Of a DNA stretch of 64,000 bases, positions 2,997 through 30,301 are shown piece after piece (position 1 is the stretch's first letter; each line of letters starts with the position of its first letter). Below the pieces are notes generated by a model that saw only the letters and a list, made by a program, of their open reading frames with translations, searched no databases and had not been told where the DNA came from. The DNA is from Cupriavidus respiraculi (lineage in GTDB: Bacteria; Pseudomonadota; Gammaproteobacteria; Burkholderiales; Burkholderiaceae). Made by a program: the position numbers and the translations under genes. The stretch is taken from assembly GCF_914271545.1 (NCBI RefSeq), contig NZ_CAJZAH010000010.1:89732-153731 (forward strand). Direction: 5' to 3'.

Positions 2997-4349
2997 TCAG
3001 GAGGCCAAGCGCGGACCAGTGGCCTTGCGGTTCATGAAGGCGCCCAGTTCGACCTTCAACGCCTTCCTGGCAAAGATGGTTTCCTCGTCCGGCGCAGCCT
3101 TGACCTTGGCCCGCTTGACGGCCAGCTTGAACGTGACTTCACGGTAGAGGGCATCGCGCACGCGCGTGCGTGCCTCCGGATCCAGTGCGAGATACGCTTC
3201 GATCCCGGCTTCGGTATTTTTCTCGATCGTTTCGTCCAGCCTTTGCACTGCCTCGACGTGTACGGGAGGCAGCTGTGGCGTCTCTACCTGCGCTGTTGTG
3301 CCGGCCGCGGCTTCACGCTCGAGCTCGCTCAACATCCAGCCTTCCTTGATGGCTCGCATCAGGTACGCGGCGGGAGACTTGATTTCGCTACCCTTGGTCT
3401 TGACCCGGTGCTTGACGAGTTCGATGGCGTTGCGTACCCGCACATCGGTGTACACGTCACGGTTCGCCATGATCTCGCCGATTTGCCGGGTACTGAGGCC
3501 GAACACCCGAACGAGAGTGTCGTAGAGGTCCTTGAGTTCGTGCGGCCGCGCCAGGTCAAGCACCAGTTTGCCGTTCGCGTTGGGTCGCAGCCTGAAACGG
3601 ATTGCCGCCACACGCCGGGTGCCAGGAGCGTTCTTGGTCTCGAACTCGGCGTCCAGGTCAGTCAGATCGTTGATTTGCTTCAGGCTCTTGTCGAGCACAA
3701 GACGCTTGAACTGCTTGTACTCGGTGAGGGACTTCACCGCGTCAGCATTGACCCAGCGACGGACTTCTTCGAGGGGAATCCAGTCCGTCGTTCCCATGAA
3801 GCGCATGGAACTGAGCCGCTCGTACAGGATGTACGCATAGTTCGTCAGCGCTGCAGACATGCGCAGCGAAAGATAGGTGTACCGCTGGGGATCTTTGAGC
3901 TGGCGCCGGATGAGGTCATCGACCTTGAAGACCACACGGCCACTGGCGATCGCGACGGAGCCCAGCAGGGGCACGGAGGCCCATTGCGGCCCACTATGGG
4001 CGTTACCTTCGACTGTGACCTGGACGGAGGCACTCTGGCATTCGCGTAGCGCTTTCTTCAGGTGAGCCAGGTTGTTGGAGGTCTCGTACTTGGCGAGCCA
4101 CTTGAAGTAGCCCAGCTCAATGTCGAAATGGTCCTGGTGCGGTTTCTGCGAAACCTCGAGCCACAGCGCGTTGATGGCACGCCTGGCCAGCAACGACAGC
4201 GACGTGACGTCGATCAGGACGTTGGTCTTGCGGTATCCGATCTCGCGCGTGGACTCCGTAATCGCGGTATTGGGTCCCAATTCCTCGCGCACGGCGGTAA
4301 AGATATCGAAGCCGAGCTGCTCGGGGATATTCTTTACGATGTTGGACAT
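2997..4349 (-). CDS. Plasmid replication initiator protein, Rep_3-like
   Basis: About 450 residues with the layout of Rep_3/RepB-type initiators: a first winged-helix region (LLARRAINALWLEVSQ, then YFKWLAKYETSNNLAHLKKA) and a second (WIPLEEVRRWVNA, then YKQFKRLVLDKSLKQIN). Such proteins bind iterons and open the origin. Directly upstream is a long array of 14 related 17-bp repeats, which supports this role strongly. The start is uncertain: ATG at 4349 (MSNIVKNIPEQ) reads like the natural N-terminus, while an in-frame GTG at 4400 lies next to a half-iteron; neither has a clear ribosome binding site. A half-iteron (AAGGTGTAA) at 4404-4412 next to the start suggests that Rep may repress its own synthesis. 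Confidence 0.8.
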   Translation of the reverse strand: MSNIVKNIPEQLGFDIFTAVREELGPNTAITESTREIGYRKTNVLIDVTSLSLLARRAINALWLEVSQKPHQDHFDIELGYFKWLAKYETSNNLAHLKKALRECQSASVQVTVEGNAHSGPQWASVPLLGSVAIASGRVVFKVDDLIRRQLKDPQRYTYLSLRMSAALTNYAYILYERLSSMRFMGTTDWIPLEEVRRWVNADAVKSLTEYKQFKRLVLDKSLKQINDLTDLDAEFETKNAPGTRRVAAIRFRLRPNANGKLVLDLARPHELKDLYDTLVRVFGLSTRQIGEIMANRDVYTDVRVRNAIELVKHRVKTKGSEIKSPAAYLMRAIKEGWMLSELEREAAAGTTAQVETPQLPPVHVEAVQRLDETIEKNTEAGIEAYLALDPEARTRVRDALYREVTFKLAVKRAKVKAAPDEETIFARKALKVELGAFMNRKATGPRLAS

Positions 4350-4777
4350 GGCGCGCGGGCGGGTGCATCGGACCAAAAATGGAATGCCGCTAATATCCAC
4401 GCTAAGGTGTAAGGCGTCAAGTTAACCATTACACCTTCGCCGGGATCTGCGGCAGGTCCGCAACGGGTGATAGCGCAAGGTGTAATCGGTTGGTGCCGCA
4501 GAAGGACAAAGGCGGTGCCGCACCTTGCAGACCAAAAAATGCCACCCTGGCACCAATGGATTGCACCTTCTCAAGGCGGGATACCAGTGAAGCCTAGCCT
4601 GGCAACGGCCCAGGCCCAAAGGGCACCCGGGCCAATGTATTGCACCTAAGGCCAAAAAACGCCACCAAGTGACCAATGAATATCACCTTGCCGCACCAAT
4701 GCATTACACCTTGCGGCACCAATCGAATGCACTTTCCGACCAACCACTTGCACCTTACGACCAATCGTTAACACTTT

Positions 4778-5888: not shown

Positions 5889-6956
5889 ATGACGCTTTCG
5901 CTTCCCGGCACCCCTCCCTCCGACGAATCAGCCCTTGTTGCGGAGTTGCAGCAGCTGATCGACCGGGCCAGGCAACGCACAGCGGCTGCCGTCAATGCCG
6001 AGATCTCGATGCTGTACTGGCGGGTGGGCGACCGGATCCATCGCGAAATACTGGGAAGCACCCGGGCAAACTATGGCGACGAGGTTGTTGTGTCGCTGGC
6101 GCGGCAGCTGACGGCTAGCTATGGGCGAGGATGGGGTGCCCGCCACCTTCGCCTCTGTGTGCGCTTCGCCCAGTCTTTTCCAGACGTCACGATTGTGCAC
6201 ACGCTGTGTACCAAATTGAGTTGGTCTCACCTGAGACTGATTGCGGCCGTTGACGACGCGGTGAAGCGCGAGTTCTACATTGAGCTGAGCCAACTGGAGG
6301 GGTGGAGCGTCCGGCAGCTCCAGGAGCGCATGCAATCGATGCTCTTCGAGCGCAGCGCGATCTCCAGGCAGCCTGAAGCAACCATCAGACAAGAGTTGCA
6401 GCGTTTGCGCCAGGACGCCGCGCCCGCACCTGCCTTGCTCCTGAAAGACCCCTATGTGCTGGACTTTCTCGGACTCAATGATCGCTATCTGGAGCGTGAT
6501 CTGGAGGACGCCATCCTGCGCGAGATAGAACAGTTTCTTCTCGAGATGGGAGCCGGCTTTACTTTCGTCGCGCGCCAGAAACGGGTGCAGATCGATTCGG
6601 ACGATTTTTATATCGACCTCCTGTTCTACAACCGCAAGCTGCGCCGTCTGGTCGCCGTCGAGCTGAAGATCGGCGAGTTCCGTGCCGAGTACAAGGGCCA
6701 GATGGAGCTGTATCTCCGGTGGCTGGCCAAACATGAGCAGGAGGCCGGCGAGAATCCGCCTCTAGGCATCATTCTCTGTACCGGCAAGAAGCGAGAGCAG
6801 ATTGAGCTGTTGGAACTGGACAAGAGTGGTATTCACGTAGCAGAGTATCTGACTGTGCTTCCGCCGCGCGAAACGCTTCAGGCCAAGCTGCATGCCTCCA
6901 TCGCGGCCGCACGGGAGCGTCTGCTGTCCGGAGGCGACGAGCCGCAAGGCTCTTGA
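5889..6956 (+). CDS. DUF1016 / YhcG-type PD-(D/E)XK nuclease family protein
   Basis: A 355-residue protein with the two-part layout of the YhcG/DUF1016 family. The N-terminal helical half has VNAEISMLYWRVGDRI, LARQLTASYGRGWGARHLR and LSWSHLRLI. The C-terminal nuclease domain has DFYIDLLFYNRKLRRLVAVE followed by LKIGEF, giving the D...E-x-K catalytic pattern near residues 240-260. Family members are common on mobile elements and next to restriction loci; their target is mostly unknown. ATG at 5889 is preferred over a TTG seven codons earlier; neither has a strong ribosome binding site. The gene lies just downstream of the last iteron and runs away from rep. Confidence 0.85.
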   Translation: MTLSLPGTPPSDESALVAELQQLIDRARQRTAAAVNAEISMLYWRVGDRIHREILGSTRANYGDEVVVSLARQLTASYGRGWGARHLRLCVRFAQSFPDVTIVHTLCTKLSWSHLRLIAAVDDAVKREFYIELSQLEGWSVRQLQERMQSMLFERSAISRQPEATIRQELQRLRQDAAPAPALLLKDPYVLDFLGLNDRYLERDLEDAILREIEQFLLEMGAGFTFVARQKRVQIDSDDFYIDLLFYNRKLRRLVAVELKIGEFRAEYKGQMELYLRWLAKHEQEAGENPPLGIILCTGKKREQIELLELDKSGIHVAEYLTVLPPRETLQAKLHASIAAARERLLSGGDEPQGS

Positions 6957-7937: not shown

Positions 7938-8441
7938 ATGACAAAGCATCGAGGGAGACAGTGGGGGTGTCTGGCGTTGGCGTTGACGATCACGGTTTCC
8001 ATCAACGCCAACGCTCAGACAGCCACGCTGGATGTCTCCGGGAAGATCTCCCGCTACACGGACCGGACGACTGGTACCTACCGCTTCAGTGAGGTGGAAC
8101 TGCTGGGGCTGCCGCAGTACCACATCGTCACCGCGACCAGTTGGACGCCGAAATCGGAGTTCGTCGGGCCTCTGCTGCTGGACGTGCTGGCACGGGTCGG
8201 GGCGCACGGGAGCACCCTCGAGTTCCACAGCCTGAACCAGTACACCTTCGCGATCCCTGTCGGGGACGCCGCCCGCTACGGTGTGATTCTCGCCCTGAGT
8301 CGAGACGGCAAGCGCCTCACGCCCAGCGATTTCGGCCCGATCTTTGTCGTCTATCCGCGGGACCAGTATCCGCGCGAATTGAAGACGCCCATCACCGAGG
8401 CAAAGTATGTGTGGCAGGTGACGGGCTTCCGTGTCCAATGA
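7938..8441 (+). CDS. Periplasmic SUOX/molybdopterin-fold protein, PruR-like pterin-binding candidate
   Basis: A 167-residue secreted protein. After KHRGRQW comes a hydrophobic signal core (CLALALTITVSINANAQ) with probable cleavage after ANA. The mature part resembles the central domain of sulfite-oxidase-type molybdoenzymes: FSEVELLGLPQYHI, LLLDVLARVGAHGSTL, YTFAIPVGDAARYGVILAL, FGPIFVVYPRD and a final YVWQVTGFRVQ. It contains no cysteine, so it lacks the molybdenum ligand and is unlikely to be an enzyme. In Agrobacterium the homologous periplasmic protein PruR binds reduced pterins and controls the membrane partner encoded beside it. Its stop overlaps the start of the sensor kinase (ATGA), fitting a binder/sensor pair. 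ATG at 7938 follows GAGGTGAGG. The pterin ligand is inferred. Confidence 0.72.
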   Translation: MTKHRGRQWGCLALALTITVSINANAQTATLDVSGKISRYTDRTTGTYRFSEVELLGLPQYHIVTATSWTPKSEFVGPLLLDVLARVGAHGSTLEFHSLNQYTFAIPVGDAARYGVILALSRDGKRLTPSDFGPIFVVYPRDQYPRELKTPITEAKYVWQVTGFRVQ

Positions 8442-10279
8442 TTCGCGCAGGCCGTATTGGAAGGCACCTCTCCATCATCCTGGTCGCTGCGGCGCTGGTG
8501 ATTTGCGCGACGTGGATGTATGTCCTGTGCCGCGTGCTCCTGGCACCCGTCGACCTGGCGCTGGTGCTGGGTCCGGGAGAAGGGTACGTCTGGACGGCCA
8601 CGCGCTATCAGATTGCCTACTCGCGGTTCGAACGCCAGTTGCTTGTATACGCGCTCCGCCACGACACCCAACTCGGCGAACTGTCACACCTGCACGACAA
8701 CCTGAGGGCCTCGTTCGGTATTCTGACGAGGCCATCCGAGTTGTCGGCCTACTTTGTTGGCATTCCGCAGTACGAGGCGGCGGTTCGGCAGCTCAACATG
8801 ATGATGGGCAAGCTCGACACGGGGATGTCTCATCTTGAGCGCGATCCTCTGGACCACCACGCGCTGGAAGACATGCTCGCCACCACCCAGCAGTACTGGT
8901 CGCCGATCCAGGGATTGCTCAACAGCTTTCGGCTGATCGAGATCAACCAGCGCGATCGCGCGTTCTGGGACTATCAGCAGAAGCGCGAAACGCTATTCCA
9001 CATCAGCACGTTTGTCGTCCTTCTGTTCGGCGCGTCGCTCGTGCAGCTGGCATTGGTGCTCCGGCGCCGGCAGCTCGTCATCCAGCAGCAGCGCACGACG
9101 CTTATTGCCGAGCGTCAGGCCGCGATCGAGGCCCGTGCCAGCGTCCAGGCACGCAACACGTTGCTGGCGATGGTGAGCCACGAATTGCGCACGCCCTTGC
9201 AGGCTATTACCGCCGCGGCCGATCTCCTGCTGTCCCGGCAGCAGCAGGAGCGCGATGCCGTGGCCGTCGGGCGCATCCACGCCGCTGCCGCGGATCTCCT
9301 CGAACTCATTACGGACCTGACGGACTACGCGCGCCTTGAGGCGGGCAAGCTCGAGTTCAAGCGCATGGAGTTCGATATTGCGGCGCTGGTGCGCGAGTTG
9401 GTGGAGGAGGCAAAGGGTCTGGCCGACGGCAAGGCGGTAGAGGTCAGCTGCGAGATTGAGGCCTATGCAACCCGGTTGGTATCGGACCCGCATCGGGTCC
9501 GCCAGATACTGGCCAATCTGCTAGCCAATGCCATCCGCTATACCGACAACGGGTCCGTGATTGTCACGCTCCGTCTTGGCTCGACGTCAGACATCCCGGT
9601 GCCTTCGCTCGAGATCTCGGTGGCCGATACCGGTCCCGGCATTGCCGAAGCCGACCAGGGCCGGGTATTCGAGCCGTTCACGCGCCTGGATCCGTCCAAC
9701 ACGCGGGCGCACGACGGGCTCGGCATGGGACTGTCCATCGTCCGGGCCCTGACGCTGGCGTTGGGCGGGCACATCGCCGTGCGCAGCGAACTCGGGCGGG
9801 GCACTACGTTCTGCCTGTCGCTGCCGCTCGAGCAGCCGACGGAGGACGCCGCCGCGCGGAAGTGTGACGCGCCGTTCTCCCCCTTGGACTTGCGAAATCT
9901 CCGCGTGCTGGTGGTGGACGACCATGCGCAAGCACGCGAGGCGATCACCTCCTTGCTGGACCTTTGGGGCGTGGTGAGCGATGCGTGCGCTAGCGCGGAC
10001 GAGGCGTGCCAGAGGCTGGCCGGGCATGTCTATGACGCGTTGCTGCTGGACATTGCGATGCCCGGTAGAGACGGCATCGCGGTCGCGCGCTGGTTGCGCC
10101 ATAACGCGCCGTTGAACGAAACCATTCCGATCATCGCCATCAGCGCCCATCTGCCGGCATGGCTGACGGACGAACAACGCCGCGACTTCGACGCGTATCT
10201 GGCCAAGCCGGTCCGTGCCAGCGAGCTCGCGGCGTCCTTGCAGCAATTGACTTCCAGGAGCGATGCCAGTGGGCCGTAG
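8438..10279 (+). CDS. Hybrid sensor histidine kinase with periplasmic domain and C-terminal receiver
   Basis: A 613-residue inner-membrane sensor. Transmembrane helices lie at about residues 11-33 and 187-208, enclosing a roughly 150-residue helical periplasmic domain that has no family I recognise. A dimerisation/phosphoacceptor domain follows, with H248 in MVSHELRTPLQ, then an HATPase domain (N box LANLLANAIRYTDNG, G1 box VADTGPGIAE, G2 box GLGMGLSIV). A receiver domain starts near residue 487 (RVLVVDDHAQ) with the phosphoaspartate in ALLLDIAMPG and the lysine in YLAKPV. There is no HAMP domain. The gene overlaps the upstream secreted binder by 4 bp and the downstream reductase by 17 bp, so all three are probably made together. 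Periplasmic ligand sensing through the binder is inferred. Confidence 0.92.
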   Translation: MIRAGRIGRHLSIILVAAALVICATWMYVLCRVLLAPVDLALVLGPGEGYVWTATRYQIAYSRFERQLLVYALRHDTQLGELSHLHDNLRASFGILTRPSELSAYFVGIPQYEAAVRQLNMMMGKLDTGMSHLERDPLDHHALEDMLATTQQYWSPIQGLLNSFRLIEINQRDRAFWDYQQKRETLFHISTFVVLLFGASLVQLALVLRRRQLVIQQQRTTLIAERQAAIEARASVQARNTLLAMVSHELRTPLQAITAAADLLLSRQQQERDAVAVGRIHAAAADLLELITDLTDYARLEAGKLEFKRMEFDIAALVRELVEEAKGLADGKAVEVSCEIEAYATRLVSDPHRVRQILANLLANAIRYTDNGSVIVTLRLGSTSDIPVPSLEISVADTGPGIAEADQGRVFEPFTRLDPSNTRAHDGLGMGLSIVRALTLALGGHIAVRSELGRGTTFCLSLPLEQPTEDAAARKCDAPFSPLDLRNLRVLVVDDHAQAREAITSLLDLWGVVSDACASADEACQRLAGHVYDALLLDIAMPGRDGIAVARWLRHNAPLNETIPIIAISAHLPAWLTDEQRRDFDAYLAKPVRASELAASLQQLTSRSDASGP

Positions 10280-11051
10280 AGTGGTGCTTGTTACCGGGGC
10301 AGCGAAGCGGGCCGGCCGCGCCTTCGCGGAATACTTCAGTGAGCGCGGTGATGCGCTGGTGGTGCACTATGGGGCGTCGGCCAGCGAGGCGGCAAGTCTG
10401 GTCGCATCCATTCGCCTTCGAGGCGGAACGGCGGTGGCGATGCAGGCCGACCTGCGCGACCCCGAGCAGATACGAGTTCTCGTCGAACGTGCCTATCGGC
10501 ACTACGGCAAAGTGGACGTGCTGATCAACAACGCGTCGGTGTTTGGCCAGGACGCTTTCTCGGATTTCAATGTCGAGACACTGGAGGAGGCCTGGCTCGT
10601 CAACTACCGCGCACCGATTCTACTGGCACGCGCCTTCTATGATCTGGCGAAGGCGGCCAATGCGACCGGTGTCGTGGTCAACGTTGTGGATCAGAAGGTC
10701 AAGGGCTCGTTCCACAAGGATCATTTCACCTACACGGTGGGCAAGGCCGGCATAGGTAACCTCACGCAGATGCTGGCGATATCGGCGCACCCAGTCCTGC
10801 GCGTCAATGCGGTTTTTCCGGGACTCATGCTGGAGAGCGACGACCAGACCGCCGACGATTTTGCCTATGCCTCTCGGCACGCTACGCCGTTGGGGGTGAT
10901 CGCAACGCCGGAGGATGTCGCTGGTGCGATCGACCTGCTGACGAGTCCGGCCTACAACGGCTTCGACTTTCTCGTCGACGGGGGGCAGCATCTGGTCAAG
11001 CGCACGCAGGACGTGCTGTACGAGCATCGCGCACCAAAGAATGACGAGTAA
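10263..11051 (+). CDS. Short-chain dehydrogenase/reductase, pteridine-reductase-like (FolM/PruA type)
   Basis: A 262-residue Rossmann enzyme. The cofactor motif is VTGAAKRAGRAFA (TGxxxRxG, with the early arginine usual for NADPH), followed by NNAS, NVVDQKVKG at the place of the usual catalytic serine, and YTVGK with catalytic Tyr and Lys. The pattern (TGAAKRxGR, VNYRAPILLARAF, D-Q-K, YTVGKAG, NAVFPGLML) fits dihydropteridine/pteridine reductases such as FolM, which makes tetrahydromonapterin, and PruA, which supplies the pterin signal in Agrobacterium. It overlaps the kinase gene by 17 bp. Other SDR substrates cannot be excluded from sequence alone. Confidence 0.75.
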   Translation: MPVGRRVVLVTGAAKRAGRAFAEYFSERGDALVVHYGASASEAASLVASIRLRGGTAVAMQADLRDPEQIRVLVERAYRHYGKVDVLINNASVFGQDAFSDFNVETLEEAWLVNYRAPILLARAFYDLAKAANATGVVVNVVDQKVKGSFHKDHFTYTVGKAGIGNLTQMLAISAHPVLRVNAVFPGLMLESDDQTADDFAYASRHATPLGVIATPEDVAGAIDLLTSPAYNGFDFLVDGGQHLVKRTQDVLYEHRAPKNDE

Positions 11052-11818: not shown

Positions 11819-12718
11819 TTACCGCCGTGATGCACCTCTGCCGTGGGGCTGCAGTGCCTGCGTCAGCTGCGCGAGCAGGATGGCGAGCTTGAGCGGCTTC
11901 TCGGCGTAGAACACGTTGAAGGTGTCCACGAGGCGTGCGATCTCGGCCTCGCTGTCCTGGCCACGGCCGGTCAGCAGGATCACCGGGGCATCGGCATTCT
12001 CGCTGCGCCGGATGCGTTCGATCGGCTCGGCGGCGGTGTGGTGTCCCACGCTCCAGTCGAGGATAAAGCCGTCGAAGTCGACGCCATGCAGCGCCTGCAG
12101 GAACGATGGCATGTCGTAGTACGGTCGCGTGTCGAAGCCCTGCTCGTTCAGGTACTCGCACAGCGTGTCGGTGACCGCGGGGGCATCGTCGACCACCGCG
12201 ATCACCGGCTTGTCCGGGTCGGCGCAACGGCTCGGTATGACGATGCGCTCGACCTGGAACAGCGCGCTAGCAGGAGCCGCCGCGACGTCGTACACCGACC
12301 ATTGCTCGCCGACCTTCGTCGCCACAAACTCTCCCACCACGGGATCCTCCGTCGGTTGCCGCACGGCGTGGCGTCGGCCCGCCAGACCACTCGCGAGGGG
12401 CTGTCCGATCCAAACCTCGCACACCAGGCGCAGTGGCCCAAGCGCCAGCACGCCGGGGCACGGCTGGCACGCCGCTTCTCCGACGCCGTCCAGCAGCGTT
12501 CGGGACGGCTCTCCATAGTGTTCTGCCACGGCCTTCAGTTGCGACAGCGTCCATGGCAACTGACCCTTCAACTTGCGGCTGGCGGCGGAGAAGCTCACGC
12601 CGAGCAGACGGCCGAGCTCGCCGGCGTGGCTGCGTTTGGCCACGCCGTGCCGGACCATGATGTCCCTGACCTGATTCGCGATGGATAGCCAGTCGATAGC
12701 GGATTGATCTTGCTGCAT
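11819..12718 (-). CDS. BetR-type HTH / response-regulator receiver protein
   Basis: A 299-residue two-domain protein. Residues 1-80 (WLSIANQVRDIMVRHGVAKR, then ELGRLLGVSFSAASRKLKG, LKAVAEHYGEPSRTLLDG) form a BetR/Cro-like helix-turn-helix. After a linker, a receiver domain starts near residue 175 (VIAVVDDAPAVTDTL), with the phosphoaspartate in FDGFILDWSVG, the conserved threonine in VILLTGRG and the lysine in YAEKPLK. ATG at 12718 (MQQDQSAIDWL) is chosen because the HTH begins there; the open frame upstream to 13210 looks non-coding. It is encoded between the hybrid kinase and the adhesin and is the obvious candidate response regulator for that kinase (inference). An autotransporter gene is divergent from it. 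Confidence 0.8.
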   Translation of the reverse strand: MQQDQSAIDWLSIANQVRDIMVRHGVAKRSHAGELGRLLGVSFSAASRKLKGQLPWTLSQLKAVAEHYGEPSRTLLDGVGEAACQPCPGVLALGPLRLVCEVWIGQPLASGLAGRRHAVRQPTEDPVVGEFVATKVGEQWSVYDVAAAPASALFQVERIVIPSRCADPDKPVIAVVDDAPAVTDTLCEYLNEQGFDTRPYYDMPSFLQALHGVDFDGFILDWSVGHHTAAEPIERIRRSENADAPVILLTGRGQDSEAEIARLVDTFNVFYAEKPLKLAILLAQLTQALQPHGRGASRR

Positions 12719-13109
12719 CCCGATTCCGTTCCACGCCTCACGAAACAAATGCGCAAAAGCTTTCGAGTTTGATCCGCGAGCGGTCCAAATCCGAGGCTGC
12801 ACGCTGCATGCATGACGCACAGCTTCAGGTTGACGACCTAAGCTGACCGTCAGCGTCAGGTTGCTGGCGTCCAGATCGATAGAAGGTAGGACATCGGCCG
12901 CGAGACAGCTACCACTTTGCTGCACGCGTTGCTCAGGACGTCGAGGGTTCCGTTCATGCCGTTCACCGTCGATCGGCGAGATGGCGACGCGCTGGACCCG
13001 CGCCGGGGATGGAGTGACTGCAGGCGCTGCAACGAGACGGTCAGAAGCGGTGTCGGCGCACCGCCTCTGCCCTAACCATAACAAGCAAGGCTGAGAGGAC
13101 CTTTTCAAT
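12719..13109. promoter_or_regulatory. Divergent intergenic region between BetR-receiver and adhesin genes
   Basis: About 390 bp with no gene. It must hold the promoters of both flanking genes. Direct repeats of the type AGGTTG / CAGGTTG and GACCGTCAGCGTCAGG occur near 12825-12860, but no convincing -35/-10 pair was found. A GAGAGGA ribosome binding site precedes the adhesin ATG. Confidence 0.45.
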
Positions 13110-15119
13110 ATGGCTTCGAGGATTGTAGGACAGGCGCGGCATCGTGCGTGTGCGGCAAGGTTGTTACCGATCGCGATGGCGGCAACGTGTCTGCTCTTCG
13201 CCGGAGGCACCAGCGGGGCGACGATCTGTCTGCGAAACAGCGACGGGACTTACGACACGCTGCGCACCGGTGGCGACACGCTTTACACGGGCAACGGCAA
13301 TCAGGCGGGCATCGTTGGGGGCTCCATCTCCTTTACGCCAGAAGTCGGCGAGGGCAGCGGCGGCACGATGAATTCCTTTATTACGGGGTTGGGCTCGGGT
13401 GGAATGCCGCTCAGTGTGGTGCAGGGTGGGCGATCGGGAATGGGCGTTGTCGGCAAGGGCGACACGACGCTCGCGCAGACGAGCTTCGGCGGAGGCGCCG
13501 GCAATCCCTGCGGAGTGGGAGGGGCGAACGCGTCCAACACCGCGGCCATGGTCGCCGATGTGCAGGCGATGGCTGAAGCGGTGGCCGCGACACAGGGGGA
13601 AATCATCACCAATGCACCGCGCTCCGCGGCGGCGGCGCTGGCCACGGGGCAGAATGCCACCGCGGTCGGCCGGGGTTCGGTCGCGGACCGCGACAACGCG
13701 GTGTCGATGGGTGTCGCTGGCGGCGAGCGGCAGATCACGCATGTCGCGCCCGGCACCAGCGGCACGGACGCGACCAATCTGGCGCAGATGCAGGCGGCCG
13801 ACGCCGCCACGTTGTACAAATCACGCGCCTATACCGACGCGAAGACCGCGCACGTCGTGCGCTATGACGTCGATGCGAGCGGCCAGCCGTTGCACACGGT
13901 GACGCTTTCGGACGGCGATGGCGTGCCCATGCGCCTGCGCAACGTCGCCGCAGGCGTGGCGGAGACCGACGCCGCGAACGTCGGCCAGGTCCAGGCCGGT
14001 GATCGGCAGACGCTCAGCGATGCCAATCGCTATACCGACTGGAGAACCAGGAACGCCATCGAGTACGACGTGGATGCGATGGGACAGCGCGCTGGATCGG
14101 TGACGCTGGCGGGTGGTGGTGCTGGGCCTGTCACGATCCGGAACGTGGCCGCAGCCGTCACGGACAACGAGGCGGTGAATCTTGCGCAGATGCGGGCCGG
14201 TGATGCGGCAACGCTGGATGCGGGCGAGCGCTATACCGACCGGCGGCTCCGGCATGTCCGTCTCACTTCCGCACTCGACGATGCGCAGGCTGCCGGCAAT
14301 GAGTCTGTGGCCATCGGCGGGAACGCGTCGGCCTCGGGTGCCAACTCGGTGGCGATCGGCACAGCGGCGATGGCGGCGCAGGCAGGCAGCGTTGCCCTGG
14401 GTGTCGACGCGCACGCCACCGCAGCGGATTCCGTTGCTTTGGGGAACCGCGCCATTGCGTCGCGCGGTGCGGAGCAGTACGTCGATCCGATCAGCGGGCA
14501 GGCAAGGCGGTCCGCGGGTGAGGTGTCGGTTGGCACGTCGGGGGCCGAACGGCAGATCACGCATGTCGCGGATGGGCATCAGGCGAGCGATGCGGTGAAC
14601 CTGCGCCAACTGCAGTCAGGGCTGTCCAGCGCGCGCGGCTATGTCGACGAACGGATTGCGATCTATCCCGGCGGTTCGATGCCGGCGCCCGTGGCCACCG
14701 CGGACAACGCGGTGGCCATCGGCCCCGGCTCGGTCGCGGACCGCGCCAACAGCGTGTCGGTGGGCGCGGCCGGCAACGCGCGCCAACTGACCAATGTCGC
14801 GCCTGGCACGGCGCCAACCGATGCGGTCACGGTTCAGCAGCTCGGCGCCGTCTCGGAGCAGGCGCGCCGGCTGGTCAGCGCATCGGGGGCAATGTCGGCG
14901 GCGATGGCCGCCATGCAGCCCAACGCGCGGGCGGAAGGGCCGCTATCCGTCTCGGTTGGCACCGGCACCTATGGGGGCACCGCCGCGCTCGCGGCGGGGA
15001 TCAACTACTACGCGTCCAATCGGGTGCTGGTCAATTTGAAGGCCTCGGCCGCGGTGGGCTCGGGCCTGTCGGGAAACCAGCTGTTCGCCGTGGGGGCGGG
15101 CGCGACGTTCGGCTTCTGA
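13110..15119 (+). CDS. Trimeric autotransporter adhesin (YadA-like)
   Basis: A 669-residue secreted protein. A long signal sequence (basic start, then RLLPIAMAATCLLFAGG) is followed by a glycine-rich head. Repeated YadA/Hep_Hag units follow: NSVAIGTAAMAAQAGSVALG, DSVALGNRAIA and NAVAIGPGSVADRANSVSVG. Neck-like motifs recur (ERQITHVAPGTSGTDATNL, ERQITHVADGHQASDAVNL, ARQLTNVAPGTAPTDAV), as does a RNVAA...YTD unit. The last 70 residues form the YadA membrane anchor (GTYGGTAALAAGINYYASNR, ending in GATFGF with a C-terminal Phe). Such proteins trimerise in the outer membrane and bind surfaces or other cells. It is followed by ompA-like and virB genes, which suggests a role in cell contact during conjugation. 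Confidence 0.9.
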   Translation: MASRIVGQARHRACAARLLPIAMAATCLLFAGGTSGATICLRNSDGTYDTLRTGGDTLYTGNGNQAGIVGGSISFTPEVGEGSGGTMNSFITGLGSGGMPLSVVQGGRSGMGVVGKGDTTLAQTSFGGGAGNPCGVGGANASNTAAMVADVQAMAEAVAATQGEIITNAPRSAAAALATGQNATAVGRGSVADRDNAVSMGVAGGERQITHVAPGTSGTDATNLAQMQAADAATLYKSRAYTDAKTAHVVRYDVDASGQPLHTVTLSDGDGVPMRLRNVAAGVAETDAANVGQVQAGDRQTLSDANRYTDWRTRNAIEYDVDAMGQRAGSVTLAGGGAGPVTIRNVAAAVTDNEAVNLAQMRAGDAATLDAGERYTDRRLRHVRLTSALDDAQAAGNESVAIGGNASASGANSVAIGTAAMAAQAGSVALGVDAHATAADSVALGNRAIASRGAEQYVDPISGQARRSAGEVSVGTSGAERQITHVADGHQASDAVNLRQLQSGLSSARGYVDERIAIYPGGSMPAPVATADNAVAIGPGSVADRANSVSVGAAGNARQLTNVAPGTAPTDAVTVQQLGAVSEQARRLVSASGAMSAAMAAMQPNARAEGPLSVSVGTGTYGGTAALAAGINYYASNRVLVNLKASAAVGSGLSGNQLFAVGAGATFGF

Positions 15120-15217: not shown

Positions 15218-16357
15218 ATGTCACGCAATATCTCCGCCGGGCTGCTCCTGTCGGCCCTGGCCTGCGCGGCTTCCGGTGTCCTCGCGATGCCCCTTGCGCA
15301 TCCCACTAGCGGGTCGCAGACGGACAAGGGGGCGCCGGCCGCGCTGCAGGCTCGGCTGGACCGCCTTGCGCATCTTTCCGCGTCGCCGTCGCGCACCCGG
15401 GCGCAGTGCTGGATTGATCTGGCTCGCCGGGAGCGGCAGCAGAGCGCGACCCATGCAAACCGCACGCCGGACAAGGCGCTTCACAACGCCGATGCGCTGA
15501 TTGGCGCGCTGGAGGAGGGGCGGGGCAACGCGCCGGTGGAGCCGATCTTTACGGAGCGTGTGTATCCCTCCACCGATCCGCGTCACGGTCGGCCCAGCTG
15601 GTTCGCCGATATCCGGCAGATCGAGGACGCGCTGGCGGCGTACCGCGACCGCCATTGCGAAACGCCGCTGTCGGCCTGCCTGGACGTGGCGTACCAGAGC
15701 GTGATGGAGAACATGGAGGAAAGCCGGGGCGGGCGGTGGCATCACGGTCGCACGGAAGTCGACCACGCCCTCGCCCTGGCGCGCCGAACGCCCGATGACC
15801 TGGCCGCGTGTGCGGGTCGGCCGACCGCCACGCCGCTGGCGGATCCGGCGCCGGTTGCTACGGCTCCTAGGCAACGGGTTGTGATCGCGCAGCGCCTGGC
15901 CGCTGACGCGCTGTTTGGATTTGATCGCGCGGATCTCACCACGGCGGGCAGGGAAGCGCTCGATCGGTTCGTGTCGGGGCTGGCGCAGCGTTCGGACGTG
16001 GTCCGGATCCGGGTGGTCGGCTACACCGACCGCTTCGGCGGCGACGCCTACAACGTGGCGCTGTCCCGGCGAAGGGCGCAGGCGGTACGTCGGTATCTGC
16101 AGGCGCGGGCGGTCAAGCTGCCGATCGTGGAGATTGGTGCCGGCGCGTCAAGACCCCGTGCGGATTGTCCCGGGCGGGCGGATGAGGCGACGGTCGCTTG
16201 CCTGCAGCCGAACCGGCGCGTCGAGTTGACGGCGGAGTCCTCTGCGGAGCTTGAGACTTCGTCCGGGTTCCCCCCGCACGAGTCTGCGTTCGCAAGCGGT
16301 GCTATTGAGGCCGAGCGCCAGTTGGCCGAGACCGTTGCCGGAGGGGACCAGCCATGA
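15218..16357 (+). CDS. OmpA-family outer-membrane / peptidoglycan-binding protein
   Basis: A 379-residue protein with a signal peptide (SAGLLLSALACAASGVLA) after an AAGGA ribosome binding site. The middle part is cysteine-containing and of unknown fold. Residues 225-345 form an OmpA C-terminal domain: DALFGFDRADLTTAGREALD, IRVVGYTDRFGGDAYNVALS, RRRAQAVRRYLQ and QPNRRVEL, which binds peptidoglycan. Its stop overlaps the start of virB2 (ATGA at 16354-16357), so it is probably co-translated with the T4SS genes. It may anchor the adhesin/T4SS to the wall; this is inference. Confidence 0.85.
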   Translation: MSRNISAGLLLSALACAASGVLAMPLAHPTSGSQTDKGAPAALQARLDRLAHLSASPSRTRAQCWIDLARRERQQSATHANRTPDKALHNADALIGALEEGRGNAPVEPIFTERVYPSTDPRHGRPSWFADIRQIEDALAAYRDRHCETPLSACLDVAYQSVMENMEESRGGRWHHGRTEVDHALALARRTPDDLAACAGRPTATPLADPAPVATAPRQRVVIAQRLAADALFGFDRADLTTAGREALDRFVSGLAQRSDVVRIRVVGYTDRFGGDAYNVALSRRRAQAVRRYLQARAVKLPIVEIGAGASRPRADCPGRADEATVACLQPNRRVELTAESSAELETSSGFPPHESAFASGAIEAERQLAETVAGGDQP

Positions 16358-16719: not shown

Positions 16720-17015
16720 GCACAGCGACGCTGACTTTCGATGAGGGGGAGGCGCTGGTCGTCTCGATGACACGGCCGACGATGATCGGCGGGTTGACGC
16801 TGAACAGCATCGCGCTGAGCCTGTATCTGCCTGGGATCGCGATGCTGCTGACACGCTCGGTCGTGCCGGCGGTGCTGGTGCCGGCGCTGCTGCTGGCGAG
16901 CTATCTGGTCTGTCTCAGGGACGTATATCTGTTCGATGTGGCGTTGGCCGCGATGCATCTGAAGCCGGGCCGCAACACGCCGTTATGGGGGTGCCGCCGC
17001 TATGCCCCTCGCTGA
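16716..17015 (+). CDS. virB3: VirB3-like inner-membrane protein of the T4SS
   Basis: A 99-residue protein beginning MSTATLTFDEGEALVVSMTR with the family motif RPTMIGGLTLNS, followed by two transmembrane segments near residues 35-70 (LYLPGIAMLL, PALLLASYLVCLRD). VirB3 works with VirB4 at the inner membrane in pilus assembly. It overlaps the virB4 start by 14 bp. Confidence 0.85.
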   Translation: MSTATLTFDEGEALVVSMTRPTMIGGLTLNSIALSLYLPGIAMLLTRSVVPAVLVPALLLASYLVCLRDVYLFDVALAAMHLKPGRNTPLWGCRRYAPR

Positions 17016-19668
17016 TCTGCTGCGACGCCATTGCGATATGGCGTTGTCGATGCCGGCACCGGCGGGCGCGCGCCTGGACCCGCGGGAACTGATCGCCAGC
17101 GACATGATCCCGTACACGGTCCACTACGACGACCACACGGTGGTGACCAAGGACGACGGTCTGCTGCAGGTGATCAGGATTGATGGCCTGCATTTCGAGT
17201 CGCTGAGCGCGGAGCAGATCCGTCAGTTCGAGCGGCGGCGCAATACCGTGCTGCGGGCGATCGCCGGCAGCGATCGTATGGTCTACGTGCACCTGATCCG
17301 GCGCAAGGTCGCCGCGTATCCCGATGGCGATGGGGAGGTCTGGTTTGCGCGCGAGTTCAATGCGGCGTGGCGGGCGCGCTACGCGTCCCGGGCGTTCTAT
17401 GTGAACGAGATCTATGTGTCGATCGTGTGCACGCGCTTTCGGCGGGGTGCGCCGGGGCTGCTCGACCGAGCCTTTGGCGCGCTGTCGGGCGGCAAGGGTG
17501 GCGGGGATGACGCGCTCGCGGGCTATGCCCAGCTGGCCAAGGATCTGTATGCCGCCTCCCAGTTGCTGCTGCAGTCGTTGTCGGACTATGGGGCGCGGCG
17601 GCTATGCGTTCAGCGCAGGCCCGTCTTCGCGGAGGCACGTGTGGCGCGCACGGCCGCGCGGCGGGAGATTGTCCGCTGTCATCGGCATTGGGACGATTTC
17701 CTGCGGCTGTATGGGGAGGCGGAGGACTACAGCCGGGAGGAAGTGGAGGACTTCCTGGGGGAGGAGGTCTCGGAGATCGCCAGTTTTCTGCACTACTTGG
17801 TCAATCTGCAGCAGGCGCGAGTGCCCGTGAGCAGCATGCCGCTGGACCGCGCGCTGGCGGCGTCGTGGCTCGATTTCGGGTTGCTGGGCAACACGATGGT
17901 GGCCGAGGGGCTTGGCGAGCGGCGCGCCGCCGCGGTATTGAGCATGGCGGAATGGCCGGCGCGCACGCCGTCGCGGATGCTGGACGAGTTTCTGCGCCAG
18001 CCGGTGGAAGCCATCATCACGCAGTCGTTTGCCTTCACGGATCGCATCAGCGCGGAGCAGGCGCTGCGTCAGGAGCGGCGGCGCGTTACGGTCAACGATC
18101 GCGAGGGGCTCGCCACGGAGGATCGCGACGAGCTGGCCCGGGGCCTGCAGGAGCTAGCCAGCGGTCGCTCGGTCAATGGCCTGCATCACCTGACCATGCT
18201 GGTGCATGTGCCGGTGGCCACGGGCCATGGCGATGCGGTGGCGGACCGGCGGCAGACCTTTGCGAAGCTCGACGCCGCCGTTGCCATGTTCAAGAAGGCA
18301 TTCGTCAATCTGGGCGTGCGACCGGTGCGCGAGCGCTTTGCGCTGGAGACGTTCTTCTGGGCACAGCTGCCCGGGCAGGCGCAGCACTTTCTGGGGCGCA
18401 GGGGCAAGATTGCATCGGCGAACTTTGCGGGCTTCGCGTCGCTTCACAACTTTGCCCAGGGGCGGATCGACGGCAATCTGTGGGGGCCCGCAATCATGCC
18501 GTTCGAGACCGAGAGCGGCACCGCGCACTACTTCAATTTCCATCGGGAGATGGACGGCATGGTGTCGGGCCATACCGCGATCACGGCGGATACCGGGTCG
18601 GGCAAGACCACGATCCTGTCGGCGCTGATCGCGATGGCCGACAAGGTCCGGCCACGGGTGGTCTGGTTCGACAATCGTGAAGGCGCCCGGGTCTTTATGG
18701 AGGCGATGGGCGCGCGGCATACGACGCTGACGGTCCAGGGCAGGACTGGCTGGAATCCCTTCCAGCTGCCGGACACGGCGGAGAACCGCGCCTACCTGGT
18801 CGAGCTGCAGATGCTGATGCGCACCTGCTATGGCGGCGCGGCGAGCGCCGACGATATCGAACGCTTCCAGCATGCCGTCTCGGAAAACTATTCCCTGCCG
18901 CCGGCGGACCGGCGACTGCGCAATGTCGCGTGGTGCTATGGCCAGGGCGGGCTTGCACGCGACATGCGCGTTTGGCACGGCGCCAGAGGCGAGGAGGGCG
19001 CCAACGCCGGGGTGTTCGACAACGCCGACGACAACCTCGACCTGGCGGCCTGCCGCTACCACTGCTACGAGATGCGGCAGCTGATCCGCGACGGCGTGGC
19101 GCGGCCGGAACTGCCGGTCGTGCTGAGCTATCCCTTCCACCGAATCGCGCAGGCGATGAACGGGGAGCCCTTCATTCTGGTGCTGGAGGAGGGGCAGAAC
19201 CTGGTGCGGCATCCGTACTGGCGCGACAAGATCGACAGCTACATCATGCAGATGCGTCGCAACAACGGTGTGCTGATCTTCGTTACGCCGGATCCCAAGT
19301 ATCTCTACTGCGAAACCGACGCGATCCTTAAGCAGACGGCGACCAAGATCTATCTGCCCAATGCGGAAGCGCGGCGGGCCGACTATGTCGACGCGCTGGG
19401 TCTGACCGAAGCGGAGTTTCGGTTTATCCGGGACACGCCCCCGGGACAGCGCAAGTTCCTGATCCGCCGGGGCAACGAATCAGTGCGTGCCGCCTTCGAT
19501 CTGTCCGACCTCCCGCAGTTTATCCCGGTGCTGTCGTCCAACGACAAGGGCGTCGCGCTGATGAAAGCCATCCAGACGGAGCTCGGGACCGACGACCCGG
19601 CGCAATGGGTGCCGGTGTTTATGGCACGCGCGCTGGCGCAGAACACGCACAACGTGGGGCGGGGCTGA
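17002..19668 (+). CDS. virB4: VirB4 ATPase of the type IV secretion system
   Basis: An 888-residue protein of the usual length. The N-terminal CagE/TrbE-type region (HYDDHTVVTKDDGLLQVIRI, FLRQPVEAIITQSFAF) leads into a P-loop ATPase with Walker A ADTGSGKTT near residue 529 and Walker B FILVLEEGQN near 723. The C-terminus has the typical KQTATKIYLPNAEA and GLTEAEFRFIRDTPPGQRKF motifs. VirB4 powers pilus biogenesis and substrate transfer at the inner membrane. The gene overlaps virB3 and is 1 bp from virB5. Confidence 0.95.
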   Translation: MPLADLLRRHCDMALSMPAPAGARLDPRELIASDMIPYTVHYDDHTVVTKDDGLLQVIRIDGLHFESLSAEQIRQFERRRNTVLRAIAGSDRMVYVHLIRRKVAAYPDGDGEVWFAREFNAAWRARYASRAFYVNEIYVSIVCTRFRRGAPGLLDRAFGALSGGKGGGDDALAGYAQLAKDLYAASQLLLQSLSDYGARRLCVQRRPVFAEARVARTAARREIVRCHRHWDDFLRLYGEAEDYSREEVEDFLGEEVSEIASFLHYLVNLQQARVPVSSMPLDRALAASWLDFGLLGNTMVAEGLGERRAAAVLSMAEWPARTPSRMLDEFLRQPVEAIITQSFAFTDRISAEQALRQERRRVTVNDREGLATEDRDELARGLQELASGRSVNGLHHLTMLVHVPVATGHGDAVADRRQTFAKLDAAVAMFKKAFVNLGVRPVRERFALETFFWAQLPGQAQHFLGRRGKIASANFAGFASLHNFAQGRIDGNLWGPAIMPFETESGTAHYFNFHREMDGMVSGHTAITADTGSGKTTILSALIAMADKVRPRVVWFDNREGARVFMEAMGARHTTLTVQGRTGWNPFQLPDTAENRAYLVELQMLMRTCYGGAASADDIERFQHAVSENYSLPPADRRLRNVAWCYGQGGLARDMRVWHGARGEEGANAGVFDNADDNLDLAACRYHCYEMRQLIRDGVARPELPVVLSYPFHRIAQAMNGEPFILVLEEGQNLVRHPYWRDKIDSYIMQMRRNNGVLIFVTPDPKYLYCETDAILKQTATKIYLPNAEARRADYVDALGLTEAEFRFIRDTPPGQRKFLIRRGNESVRAAFDLSDLPQFIPVLSSNDKGVALMKAIQTELGTDDPAQWVPVFMARALAQNTHNVGRG

Positions 19669-20636: not shown

Positions 20637-21006
20637 GATCCGTGGGCGTGACATCCGCTTGATGCTGATCGGCGGCGCGCTTGGGGCCTTGGGCGCGATG
20701 GGCGGCCTTGGGGCGCTGGGTGCGATGGCGGGCCTGAGTGCAGGCGGGAGGCAACCGTTGTCCCCGTCGGCGCTAGGGCAGCCGTGCGGGCTTTCGTCGG
20801 GGCGGGCGCGGGCGTATTTCGGTGGGGCCGGAGAGGACGGTGCGGCGTCGCGCACGGAAGGGTCGGCAGATGCCGCAGAGTCGGTGCCGGGGGACGGGGC
20901 CGCGCAGAATACGACGCCGGATTGCGATGACAATGCCCATGACGAGGCGGCGTTCGTCCCGCTGCGGTGCCGGCGCGATTCTCTGCCCGGCGAGGTATCG
21001 CGATGA
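20629..21006 (+). CDS. Hypothetical T4SS-operon protein with Gly/Ala-rich membrane segment
   Basis: A 125-residue protein. A hydrophobic stretch with repeated GALGAMGGLGALGAMAGLSAG (residues 15-37) resembles a membrane helix, followed by an acidic, probably disordered tail with four cysteines. I recognise no family. It overlaps the genes on both sides by 4-8 bp, so it is part of the operon. Confidence 0.6.
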   Translation: MPEIRGRDIRLMLIGGALGALGAMGGLGALGAMAGLSAGGRQPLSPSALGQPCGLSSGRARAYFGGAGEDGAASRTEGSADAAESVPGDGAAQNTTPDCDDNAHDEAAFVPLRCRRDSLPGEVSR

Positions 21007-21887
21007 GCGCGGTGACACTGGGGGGCATGCTGGGCGCGGCCGACGGCATGACGCGCTCGTTTCTGGCCAGCACGTATCCGGCGGTGGCCCGCAGCGTCGC
21101 GGCTCCGGTGTATTGCGGGGCGGTCCTGTACTGGGCGCTGCATGGGTACAAGGTGATGGCGGGCCACGCGGCGCTCGACTGGAGCGAGCTGGTCACCAAG
21201 GCGGCGATGACGGCGATCGTGTTCGGCACGTTGAACTGGGGCGGTCTGGCGGGCGAGATCTACCAGGCGTTCGTCTCGACGATGAACGGAACCGCGGCCA
21301 CGATCATGGCAGGCGAGCCGACGGTCGACATGCTCGATGCCTTGTGGGTCAACGTCAATGCGGTGTCCGACACGCTGCGCAACAGCAGTCTGTACGAGAT
21401 GGGCATGATCCTGGACGGCTTCGGTCTGTGGATCGTCAACACGATCCTGTTTGCCATTGCGCTGGGTTATCTCACCCTCGCCAAATTCGGCCTGGCGATC
21501 ACGATGGTGCTGTTGCCCCTGTTTGTCGGCTTCGGGATGTTTCCACTCACGCGCCAGTGGCTGATGAACTGGCTCGGCTACATGATGTCGTTCGCCTTTC
21601 TCTACATCCTGGTGATCGCCATCGTGCGGTTCGGCTTTGCCGCGTTCGGCGATGCCGTGCGCGAGGCGGGGCAGGCGGCGGGCGTGATCGGATCGAAGGG
21701 CGTGCGCAGTGCGCTGACGGCCGAGCTGTTTTTGCTCGAGACCTCGCTGTGCATTTTCATGTGGCGGGCCCGGGAATGGGCAGGCAGCCTGGCCGGCGCG
21801 ACTACGTCGTCTTCCGGCGCGCTGATGCTGGTGATGCGCGGGGCGTTGCCCCGGGGAGGGCAGGGTGCGAGCCGCGGCAAACGTTGA
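21003..21887 (+). CDS. virB6: VirB6/TrbL-like polytopic membrane protein of the T4SS
   Basis: A 294-residue protein with several transmembrane segments (VYCGAVLYWALHGYKVM, AMTAIVFGTLNWGG, WIVNTILFAIALGYLTLA, AITMVLLPLFVGFGMFPLTR, MSFAFLYILVIAIVRFGFA) and the conserved family tryptophans (LNWGG, NWLGYMMS). VirB6 forms part of the inner-membrane channel. ATG at 21003 overlaps the stop of the previous gene. Confidence 0.88.
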   Translation: MSAVTLGGMLGAADGMTRSFLASTYPAVARSVAAPVYCGAVLYWALHGYKVMAGHAALDWSELVTKAAMTAIVFGTLNWGGLAGEIYQAFVSTMNGTAATIMAGEPTVDMLDALWVNVNAVSDTLRNSSLYEMGMILDGFGLWIVNTILFAIALGYLTLAKFGLAITMVLLPLFVGFGMFPLTRQWLMNWLGYMMSFAFLYILVIAIVRFGFAAFGDAVREAGQAAGVIGSKGVRSALTAELFLLETSLCIFMWRAREWAGSLAGATTSSSGALMLVMRGALPRGGQGASRGKR

Positions 21888-21912
21888 TGGCGCGGGCAGT
21901 GGCCGGGGAACC

Positions 21913-22566
21913 ATGGTGGGCGATCCGACGACGCGCGCGTTGCAGTTGGGCGGGACGAACAAGCTGCGGCAGCAGCGCAACCGCGCCTATCTGTTCAACG
22001 GCCTGCAGGCGGTTTGCCTGGTGGCGCTGTCCGCGGCGGTATGGCGGCTGGCGGATGTGCATACCGTGATCCCGGTGGTGTCGGTGATCGACGCCAATGG
22101 CCACGTGACCCGGCAGTCGGTCGTCAGTCCTCAGACGATCGCGGGCCACGAGAGTTTCGTGCAAAGCCAGGTGTTCAACTTTGTGACGTACTGCAATACG
22201 TTCGATCCGGCCTGGCGGCAGCACTACGCGGATCTGTGCCGGCTGCACGCGACCACGGCCGTGGCGCGCCAGTACGAGGCCGAGACCGCTGCCGACAACC
22301 CGGACAACCCGTATTACGCGGTGGGCCCTGGCGGTCGCCGCTATCCGCGCATCACGGCGGTGACGTCGTTGGGGCGGGATGCCTATCAGGTGTCGTTCCG
22401 CTCGATCACGGAGCGGCCGGGGGCGGAGGCGACGACGGAGTATTTCACGGCATTGGTTCACTACACCATCACCTATCAGCCGCTGGCGCTGGGCGACCGT
22501 TGGGTCAATCCTCTGGGGTTCGCCGCCACGGCGTATCGCAAGGATCAGGAGCTGGCGCGCCAGTAG
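21913..22566 (+). CDS. virB8: VirB8-like T4SS assembly factor
   Basis: About 217 residues. A cytoplasmic tail and one transmembrane segment (LQAVCLVALSAAVWRLA) are followed by the periplasmic VirB8 domain (VQSQVFNFVTYCNTFDPAWR, YQVSFRSITERPG, FTALVHYTITYQPLALGDRW, NPLGFAATAYRKDQEL). VirB8 nucleates the core complex. I chose ATG at 21913; an in-frame GTG at 21865 overlaps virB6 and has no better signal. Confidence 0.88.
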   Translation: MVGDPTTRALQLGGTNKLRQQRNRAYLFNGLQAVCLVALSAAVWRLADVHTVIPVVSVIDANGHVTRQSVVSPQTIAGHESFVQSQVFNFVTYCNTFDPAWRQHYADLCRLHATTAVARQYEAETAADNPDNPYYAVGPGGRRYPRITAVTSLGRDAYQVSFRSITERPGAEATTEYFTALVHYTITYQPLALGDRWVNPLGFAATAYRKDQELARQ

Positions 22567-22594
22567 GCGCTGCCACGATATCGGGGATACCACC

Positions 22595-23398
22595 ATGACA
22601 TGGCAGGGCAGGCGGGTGTCAATCGGGATGCTGTCGGGGCTGGGGCTCGCTCTCGGGCTTGTTGCGAGTCCGGCCGTGTATGCCGCAAAGGCGCCGCGGC
22701 CCGTGCTGACGGACACCCGTGTCAGGCAGGTTCTATTCGATCCGAATCAGGTGTACGAGGTCGCCGGCACCTACGGGTATCAGACGGCCATCGAATTCAG
22801 CCAGGGCGAGTCGATCAAGGTGGTGTCGCTTGGCGACAGCATCGCCTGGCAGGCCGTGCCGTACCGCAATCGCCTGTTCCTCAAGCCGGTGGAGCCCAAC
22901 GCGTCGACCAACCTGACCGTGATCACGGACAAGCGGACGTATTTTTTCCGGCTGCGGGGTGCCGCGGCGTCGCAGCCGATGACCTTCGTGGTTCGGTTCG
23001 TCTATCCGGGCAGCGGCGGCCGGGACGCGCAGGGCCGCCATGGGGATGGCGACGCGCCGGGCGGGCGCGCCGGCGGGCAGAGCGTCGACATCGGCAGGCT
23101 CAACTTCGACTACGGGCAGTCCGGAGACCGGGCGGCGATTCCGCTGATTCGGGCGTTCGACGACGGGCAGTTCACCTATCTGTTGTTCGACAAGGACGGC
23201 GACGTGCCGGCGGTGTACCTGGTGGCGGCGGACGGCACGGAGTCGGTGGTCAATACCCGGCGCGAAGGTGAGTACCTGGTGGTGGAGCGCGTCGGCGCGC
23301 GCTTCACGCTGCGCAGTGGCAAGGCTTACCTGTGTCTGCAGAATCGCCGCCTCGCCGGGCGCGGGGCGGCGCCGACGGAGGGAGGCGGCAATGGATGA
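22595..23398 (+). CDS. virB9: VirB9-like outer-membrane core component of the T4SS
   Basis: A 267-residue secreted protein: signal peptide to about VYAAK, N-terminal domain (DTRVRQVLFDPNQVYEV, FSQGESIKVVSLGDS, RLFLKPVEPNASTNLTVITD, RTYFFRL) and C-terminal domain (FDDGQFTYLLFDKDGDVPAVY). A Gly/Asp/Arg-rich linker sits between them. VirB9 forms the outer ring with VirB7 and VirB10. It overlaps virB10 by 8 bp. Confidence 0.9.
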   Translation: MTWQGRRVSIGMLSGLGLALGLVASPAVYAAKAPRPVLTDTRVRQVLFDPNQVYEVAGTYGYQTAIEFSQGESIKVVSLGDSIAWQAVPYRNRLFLKPVEPNASTNLTVITDKRTYFFRLRGAAASQPMTFVVRFVYPGSGGRDAQGRHGDGDAPGGRAGGQSVDIGRLNFDYGQSGDRAAIPLIRAFDDGQFTYLLFDKDGDVPAVYLVAADGTESVVNTRREGEYLVVERVGARFTLRSGKAYLCLQNRRLAGRGAAPTEGGGNG

Positions 23399-30240: not shown

Positions 30241-30301
30241 CGGTCAGGGTGGGCGGCGTGATGGGCGTCGTGATGAGGCGAGCGCGTTCAGCGATGTGTG
30301 G

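Follow-up and report, generated by a model that had tools for sequence, protein, structure and literature searches.

A plasmid-borne PruR-kinase-BetR locus of Cupriavidus respiraculi as a candidate pterin-sensing relay for the control of plasmid transfer

What does a pterin-binding protein paired with a histidine kinase control when both are encoded on a plasmid? This question is raised by a stretch of 64,000 nucleotides from Cupriavidus respiraculi (contig NZ_CAJZAH010000010.1, positions 89,732 to 153,731; hereafter the window), in which three genes with overlapping reading frames at positions 7938-11051 encode a PruR-type pterin binder, a hybrid histidine kinase (HK) and a short-chain dehydrogenase/reductase (SDR) of the pteridine-reductase type. 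The three genes lie where the original prediction, made from the sequence alone, had placed them; the pruR-like gene (167 aa) overlaps the kinase gene (613 aa) by 4 bp, and the kinase gene overlaps the SDR gene (262 aa) by 17 bp. That prediction stopped one gene short: next after the SDR gene comes a gene for a response regulator with a BetR domain and a receiver (BetR-REC), and this regulator together with the adjoining transfer genes is the informative part of the locus. On balance, gene content and order suggest that the locus is probably a plasmid-borne pterin-sensing relay controlling plasmid transfer. The earlier pterin-sensing interpretation was supported overall, the comparison of the binder with PruR-type proteins and the search for the trio elsewhere both coming out in its favour. 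The four genes are:

7938..8441, plus strand: PruR-type periplasmic pterin-binding protein, its N-terminus having the look of a Sec signal peptide as judged by eye, followed by a SUOX-type domain without Cys
8438..10279, plus strand: membrane hybrid histidine kinase, with a predicted helical periplasmic domain, HisKA, HATPase_c and a receiver
10263..11051, plus strand: pteridine-reductase-type SDR, with TGX3RXG and YX3K motifs
11819..12718, minus strand: response regulator with a BetR domain (1.3e-27) and a receiver (Response_reg, 1e-8), likely cognate; the start codon is our choice

Comparison of the PruR-like product with the Protein Data Bank (PDB; phmmer, up to E=10) gave four distinct matching sequences, three named pterin-binding (7rkb, 2.9e-16; 7kos, 2.2e-15; 7kp2, 3.5e-13) and the fourth named Oxidored_molyb domain protein (7kom, 2.8e-10). 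The product scores 25.6 bits with PF00174 (cut-off 24) and has no Cys beyond residue 28, so that the molybdenum-ligating cysteine is missing, in line with the SUOX-fold binder without this ligand that had been predicted. It keeps the pterin-site residues W159, Y102 and N100, whose roles in PruR are described in PMC13259868, and the proposed match to PruR-type proteins was thereby borne out by sequence and by site residues alike. In an alignment of 32 rows (30 from loci and two PDB fragments), W159 was kept in 32/32, position 102 was Y in 30 and F in 2, and position 100 was N in 15 and D in 17. RefSeq labels two of the eight E. coli matches listed 'putative pterin-binding protein'.

Profiles placed HisKA, HATPase_c and Response_reg domains in the kinase, and about 150 aa lie between its two transmembrane segments as read from the sequence, which agrees with the membrane hybrid kinase and periplasmic domain of about 150 residues proposed before. 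This periplasmic stretch came out helical in a model built from a 6-row alignment (mean pLDDT 77); since a Foldseek search with the model returned nothing below E=0.001 (best E 0.26), the model says no more than 'helical bundle', the periplasmic sensor domain of a kinase, 4k0d, aligning at TM 0.56-0.60 with E=0.61. By sequence, it aligns over its length with the corresponding part of DcpA from Enterobacter (L065) and Phyllobacterium (L079). The kinase gene lies directly downstream of pruR, the kinase core is of the TorS/BaeS kind, and its best NCBIfam match is TorS (TIGR02956, 254 bits), below the cut-off of 676.5. Since PruR signalling through a kinase has already been published as 'PruR-DTB' (PMC13259868) and TorS is the best curated match, the kinase in the place of DcpA, as originally predicted, is a published configuration and not a new one. 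The WX7E motif stands at the same site in 2/2 DcpAs (L065, L079), in 1/3 other PruR-linked kinases (L077) and in 1/16 BetR-linked kinases (L061); the window kinase, a variant in this respect, would work like a DTB kinase to judge from its make-up.

The regulator accompanies PruR well beyond the window. In a set of 299 Burkholderiaceae genomes, 92 had a PruR match including the window's own, and in 80 of the 91 others, with 87 PruR loci, BetR-REC lay within 8 kb of PruR at 82/87 (the BetR rows compared with PruR loci omit some second copies far from PruR). We had considered that the set might be confined to plasmids, an idea rejected by the PruR+BetR loci of this genome set. The receiver residues D222, T251 and K275, as expected of a phospho-acceptor, were invariant in 14 aligned BetR rows. 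On three F-type plasmids the genes form a single tight run, BetR-(GT9 or GNAT)-PruR-HK, with gaps of -4/-14/-4 (L055), 2/-14/-4 (L080) and 11/-4/-4 (L082); together with the 82 of 87 loci, this argues that BetR-REC is likely the cognate regulator of the PruR-kinase pair. Class-wide, the BetR profile matched 14/369 genomes, 13 of these 14 on the receiver part only. BetR-REC paralogues also occur as second copies in Burkholderiaceae genomes, in stretches without PruR (L083-L087), and the conjugation locus L070 (G201:C31, 12959-16316) has two PruR-kinase pairs side by side in divergent orientation but a single BetR match in the stretch, as if two signals fed one regulator.

In the window, betR is convergent with the SDR gene and divergent from yadA-ompA-virB, so facing, in order:

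12719..13109, no strand: intergenic region from the regulator to the adhesin and type IV secretion system (T4SS) genes, where the regulated promoter would be expected (no operator found)
13110..15119, plus strand: YadA-type trimeric autotransporter adhesin, between regulator and virB
15218..16357, plus strand: OmpA-family protein, between regulator and virB
17002..19668, plus strand: VirB4 ATPase of the conjugation T4SS, ~70% identical to VirB4 of Pandoraea pPO70-2

Beyond these lie further T4SS genes, a coupling protein and a TrwC relaxase. The trio and the regulator recur on Pandoraea pPO70-2, where they directly face virB2-virB4, and the order PruR-HK-(GT2 in L068)-SDR-BetR, facing virB, is common to the window, Pandoraea L048 and L068, whose VirB4 proteins are 69% (L048) and 53% (L068) identical to the window's over the aligned parts. 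On the F-type plasmids L055, L080 and L082 the run lies between the traM side and traY: on Serratia p2-125 and Pantoea pAJ2b_D it stands between traM and traY, and on Klebsiella pKP424-5 the traM-side gene matches, at 54%, a protein of Serratia (L054) that carries the annotation TraM. In R1 and F this interval holds the activator gene traJ; its end in R1 lies immediately before traY, whose promoter is activated by TraJ (PMC7303359, PMC7690428).

We compared 26 plasmid loci including the window, hand-picked from hit lists and with unequal flanks. Transfer, relaxase or relaxosome genes were present in the stretch at 18 of the 20 BetR-type loci against 0/6 without BetR (Fisher p=1.2e-4); L049 and L091 (3.2 Mb B. 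cenocepacia 'plasmid' record taken as chromosome) stand outside this count. The link of L053 consisted of its relaxase and mobA and nothing else, that of L054 of traM and a transglycosylase alone; counting both as unlinked gave 16/20 vs 0/6 (p=9e-4), and removing L078 as well p=2.4e-3. Dropping L078 (a 1.85 Mb Vibrio record) alone from the non-BetR loci gave p=4e-4, and one row per near-copy group 13/14 vs 0/5 (p=5e-4). Among 5426 complete E. coli genomes, a Shigella-type set occurred at 68 places in 66, 63 with at least 80% of the set, all plasmid-borne with 0 chromosomal. On a BetR tree of 36 rows, 17 of them transfer-linked, 6 changes of linkage were needed, and well supported branches force at least 4 of them; with the labels shuffled the average was 12.3 and 1/500 came as low, and the transfer link is therefore clustered on this tree and not of single origin.

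The third gene of the trio brings in a further regularity. The SDR contains TGX3RXG (as TGAAKRAG) and YX3K (as YTVGK), and its best PDB match is 5tgd, 'FolM' (5.9e-31), which bears out the predicted FolM/PruA type; it falls below the curated pteridine reductase cut-offs of NCBIfam (best PRK09134, 225.8/281; PRK09135, 155.4/288; PRK06483, 95.7/249), and we therefore call it PruA-like without filing it as PruA. The trio, whose conservation had been put forward as a check, was found in five other loci (L048, L068, L071, L076 and L090, the last two from one genus), and the set's six SDR rows form a clade (96/94) with one unlinked B. cenocepacia SDR. A 1.58 Mb contig of the host codes for an SDR of its own (L011), which shares 46% identity with 5tgd and 39% with the SDR of the window; the reductase-type enzyme supplied by the plasmid is therefore a second and distinct one. 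Across loci the same slot holds an SDR, a GT9, a GT2 plus SDR or a GNAT: L068 has the order of the window with a GT2 gene added, a GT9-type gene replaces the SDR on Paraburkholderia plasmids, and a GNAT fills the slot of both Pantoea plasmids. A GT9 homologue is present in most enterobacterial plasmids read, the Klebsiella copy (L055) being 35-36% identical to the Paraburkholderia one, and GT9 matches were also found in L053, L054 and L081, the Serratia gene being labelled GT9 by RefSeq. That the slot enzyme would always be a reductase was rejected by the GT9 and GNAT genes. In the Burkholderiaceae set a slot enzyme was present in 4/4 transfer-linked sets vs 5/77 unlinked loci (p=7.6e-5), four of the five having been read and one judged by gap size, and most unlinked loci in which betR precedes pruR not having been read for a slot enzyme elsewhere; with two further large gaps counted, the contrast was against 7/77 (p=2e-4).

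Starting from the gene order, the homology, the conserved pterin-site and receiver residues and the recurrent place beside transfer genes observed here, we propose the following relay. The periplasmic PruR-type protein would bind a pterin, most likely in reduced (tetrahydro) form; once loaded, it would dock on the helical periplasmic domain of the kinase and shift its kinase/phosphatase balance. Phosphate would then flow, through any histidine phosphotransfer step, to the receiver of BetR-REC, which would act, as activator or repressor, on DNA between itself and the transfer genes (in the window yadA-ompA-virB...trwC). The SDR may serve as a plasmid-supplied pteridine reductase that helps to make the signal.

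Several points weigh against transfer control as the function. VirB4 (PF03135, which F-type TraC may escape) was absent within 15 kb at 77/82 of the PruR+BetR Burkholderiaceae loci, which implies that the relay does not serve conjugation alone and has another role elsewhere, and at two BetR-type plasmid loci (L058 and L061) the stretch read shows the set but no transfer genes. The VirB4 side of the 77/82 count used 10 rows, among them every VirB4 row on a PruR-bearing contig. Our selection of plasmid loci was made by hand and includes several near-copies, and 3/6 of the non-BetR loci have short flanks (5-6 kb). Conjugative typing speaks for transfer control, at 361/397 plasmids matching BetR-REC, 400/636 matching PruR and 2340 among the 5000 generic-kinase-core plasmids listed, but the BetR-REC and PruR counts are clonal (Klebsiella alone 219 and 265) and only 261/397 of the former cover 80% of BetR-REC. 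Several branches of the BetR tree, the window's included, are long and unsure. In the window kinase the W of WX7E is kept and the E replaced by A, and the fold model of PruR was poor (5-row alignment, pLDDT 48.6) and was not used. Finally, a search for 4+4 and 5+5 base dyads in 24 regions upstream of betR, set against 8 shuffles, gave no shared operator clearly above the shuffles: over all regions the top counts were 9 vs 5-7 and 7 vs 3, which we take as no clear result because the groups exceeding the shuffles hold near-copies. A GCAATAT-like element was sighted by eye only during this search.

The place of yadA and ompA between regulator and virB also counts against the proposal, since the adhesin could be the direct target. 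The system might then be a general regulator of surface attachment or the envelope that rides on plasmids, with the YadA-type adhesin and OmpA as targets and the transfer genes affected at most indirectly, a reading we hold possible but doubtful. The direct adjacency of yadA and ompA to betR, the many loci without nearby VirB4 and the control of an adhesin polysaccharide by the PruR pathway of Agrobacterium tumefaciens (PMC13259868) all speak for it; against this, the YadA and OmpA of the window had no match in 25 + 13 compared loci (7 common), most with ~8 kb on each side, and transfer genes are the usual plasmid neighbour. Equally tentative is a pheromone-like elaboration of transfer control, self-sensing, in which the slot enzyme would tailor a common pterin of the cell into the plasmid's own signal, and the relay of PruR, kinase and BetR-REC would use this signal to adjust transfer to the number of donors, or the redox state, around the cell.

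Somewhat less probable again is that the signalling is real and the ligand is something other than a reduced pterin, candidates being a folate, a breakdown product of molybdopterin, some other heterocycle, or a derivative that the slot enzyme has glycosylated or acylated. The variable slot enzyme would fit such a ligand, as would D at pocket position 100 in more than half of the rows, a replacement that may alter specificity as suggested in PMC13259868; the constancy of W159 and near-constancy of Y102 argue for a pterin, as do, in the window, N100 and a reductase with the R motif of pteridine reductases. Conjugation genes make up a large share of many plasmids and our choice of loci was non-random, so that a mobile regulatory cassette could have landed beside transfer genes by chance, but this is very improbable given the recurrent place, either between traM and traY or immediately before virB2-4, on plasmids of Enterobacterales, Burkholderiales and, less directly, Rhizobium, the forced changes on the BetR tree and the higher share of conjugative typing among BetR-REC plasmids than among generic-kinase plasmids.

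Transfer control presupposes a plasmid, and the remaining backbone features of the window are:

2997..4400, minus strand: Rep_3 plasmid replication initiator (profile match)
20967..21887, plus strand: VirB6/TrbL
21865..22566, plus strand: VirB8
22379..23398, plus strand: open reading frame with a VirB9/CagX domain, overlapping virB8 as listed; start provisional
23268..24788, plus strand: VirB10/TrbI; start provisional
29761..30102 (contig 119492-119833), plus strand: part of a T4SS coupling protein (PF02534, E=2.5e-12)
30152..33277, plus strand: TrwC-type relaxase (PF08751, 7.8e-83)

A single contig of 153,731 bases thus holds the Rep_3 initiator, T4SS genes, coupling protein and TrwC relaxase, a combination by which the replicon is classed, from its genes, as a conjugative plasmid; the plasmid location claimed by the original prediction was confirmed by the same genes. 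Between the replication gene and pruR lies a gene for a DUF1016/YhcG PDDEXK nuclease (5868-6956), and on the minus strand at 1161-2876 one for a NERD/UvrD-like helicase. Homologues of the helicase (46-50% identical) stand upstream of pruR in L007, L008, L009, L088 and L089, and another adjoins the orphan betR of L083; this gene may belong to the same neighbourhood as pruR.

Among known systems, the published PruR-DTB arrangement is the closest in layout, with pruR placed immediately before the gene of a membrane sensor kinase that has a DcpA-like periplasmic domain and a TorS-like core (PMC13259868); the set of the window differs in lacking the E of WX7E and in having BetR-REC, a slot for small-molecule enzymes and a position at conjugation genes. 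With the PruA-PruR-DcpA pathway of A. tumefaciens it shares a pteridine reductase, a periplasmic PruR and a membrane partner read by PruR (PMC13259868), whereas its output would be a phospho-relay and not turnover of cyclic di-GMP (c-di-GMP), and its reductase-type gene lies in the same gene run while the host keeps one of its own. An Agrobacterium pAt plasmid (L077, 3027-8739) has a PruR-kinase pair with a diguanylate cyclase gene before it and an HD-domain phosphohydrolase gene after it, a kinase-type PruR beside likely c-di-GMP enzymes. As in the control of F-like plasmids by TraJ at PY, the regulator is coded just ahead of a transfer region (traY and the tra operon), where the host response regulator ArcA also acts (PMC7690428, PMC7303359); the likeness to TraJ is one of gene position, BetR-REC bearing a receiver and having its own sensor genes. 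Quorum sensing on Ti plasmids is likewise small-molecule control of conjugation (PMC7690428), a plasmid-made signal being shared only if transfer control is pheromone-like, and differs from the pterin, periplasmic binding protein and histidine kinase proposed here.

Only one case of bacterial PruR signalling has been worked out, and its output is c-di-GMP, according to PMC13259868, a review that nowhere uses the words plasmid, conjugat or BetR. Among the open-licence papers listed by literature searches, judged by titles and the starts of abstracts, none links pterins or PruR with conjugation; the primary PruR paper (PNAS 2024) may mention plasmid loci. Here, the position of related sensors and a likely regulator links them to plasmid transfer in plasmids of several types, among them those of Klebsiella, E. 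coli and Salmonella. If true, the relay would represent a new class of small-molecule control over gene exchange, give pterins an extracellular role and open to direct test what kinase-type PruR systems control; bacteria may use pterins to decide when plasmids are shared.

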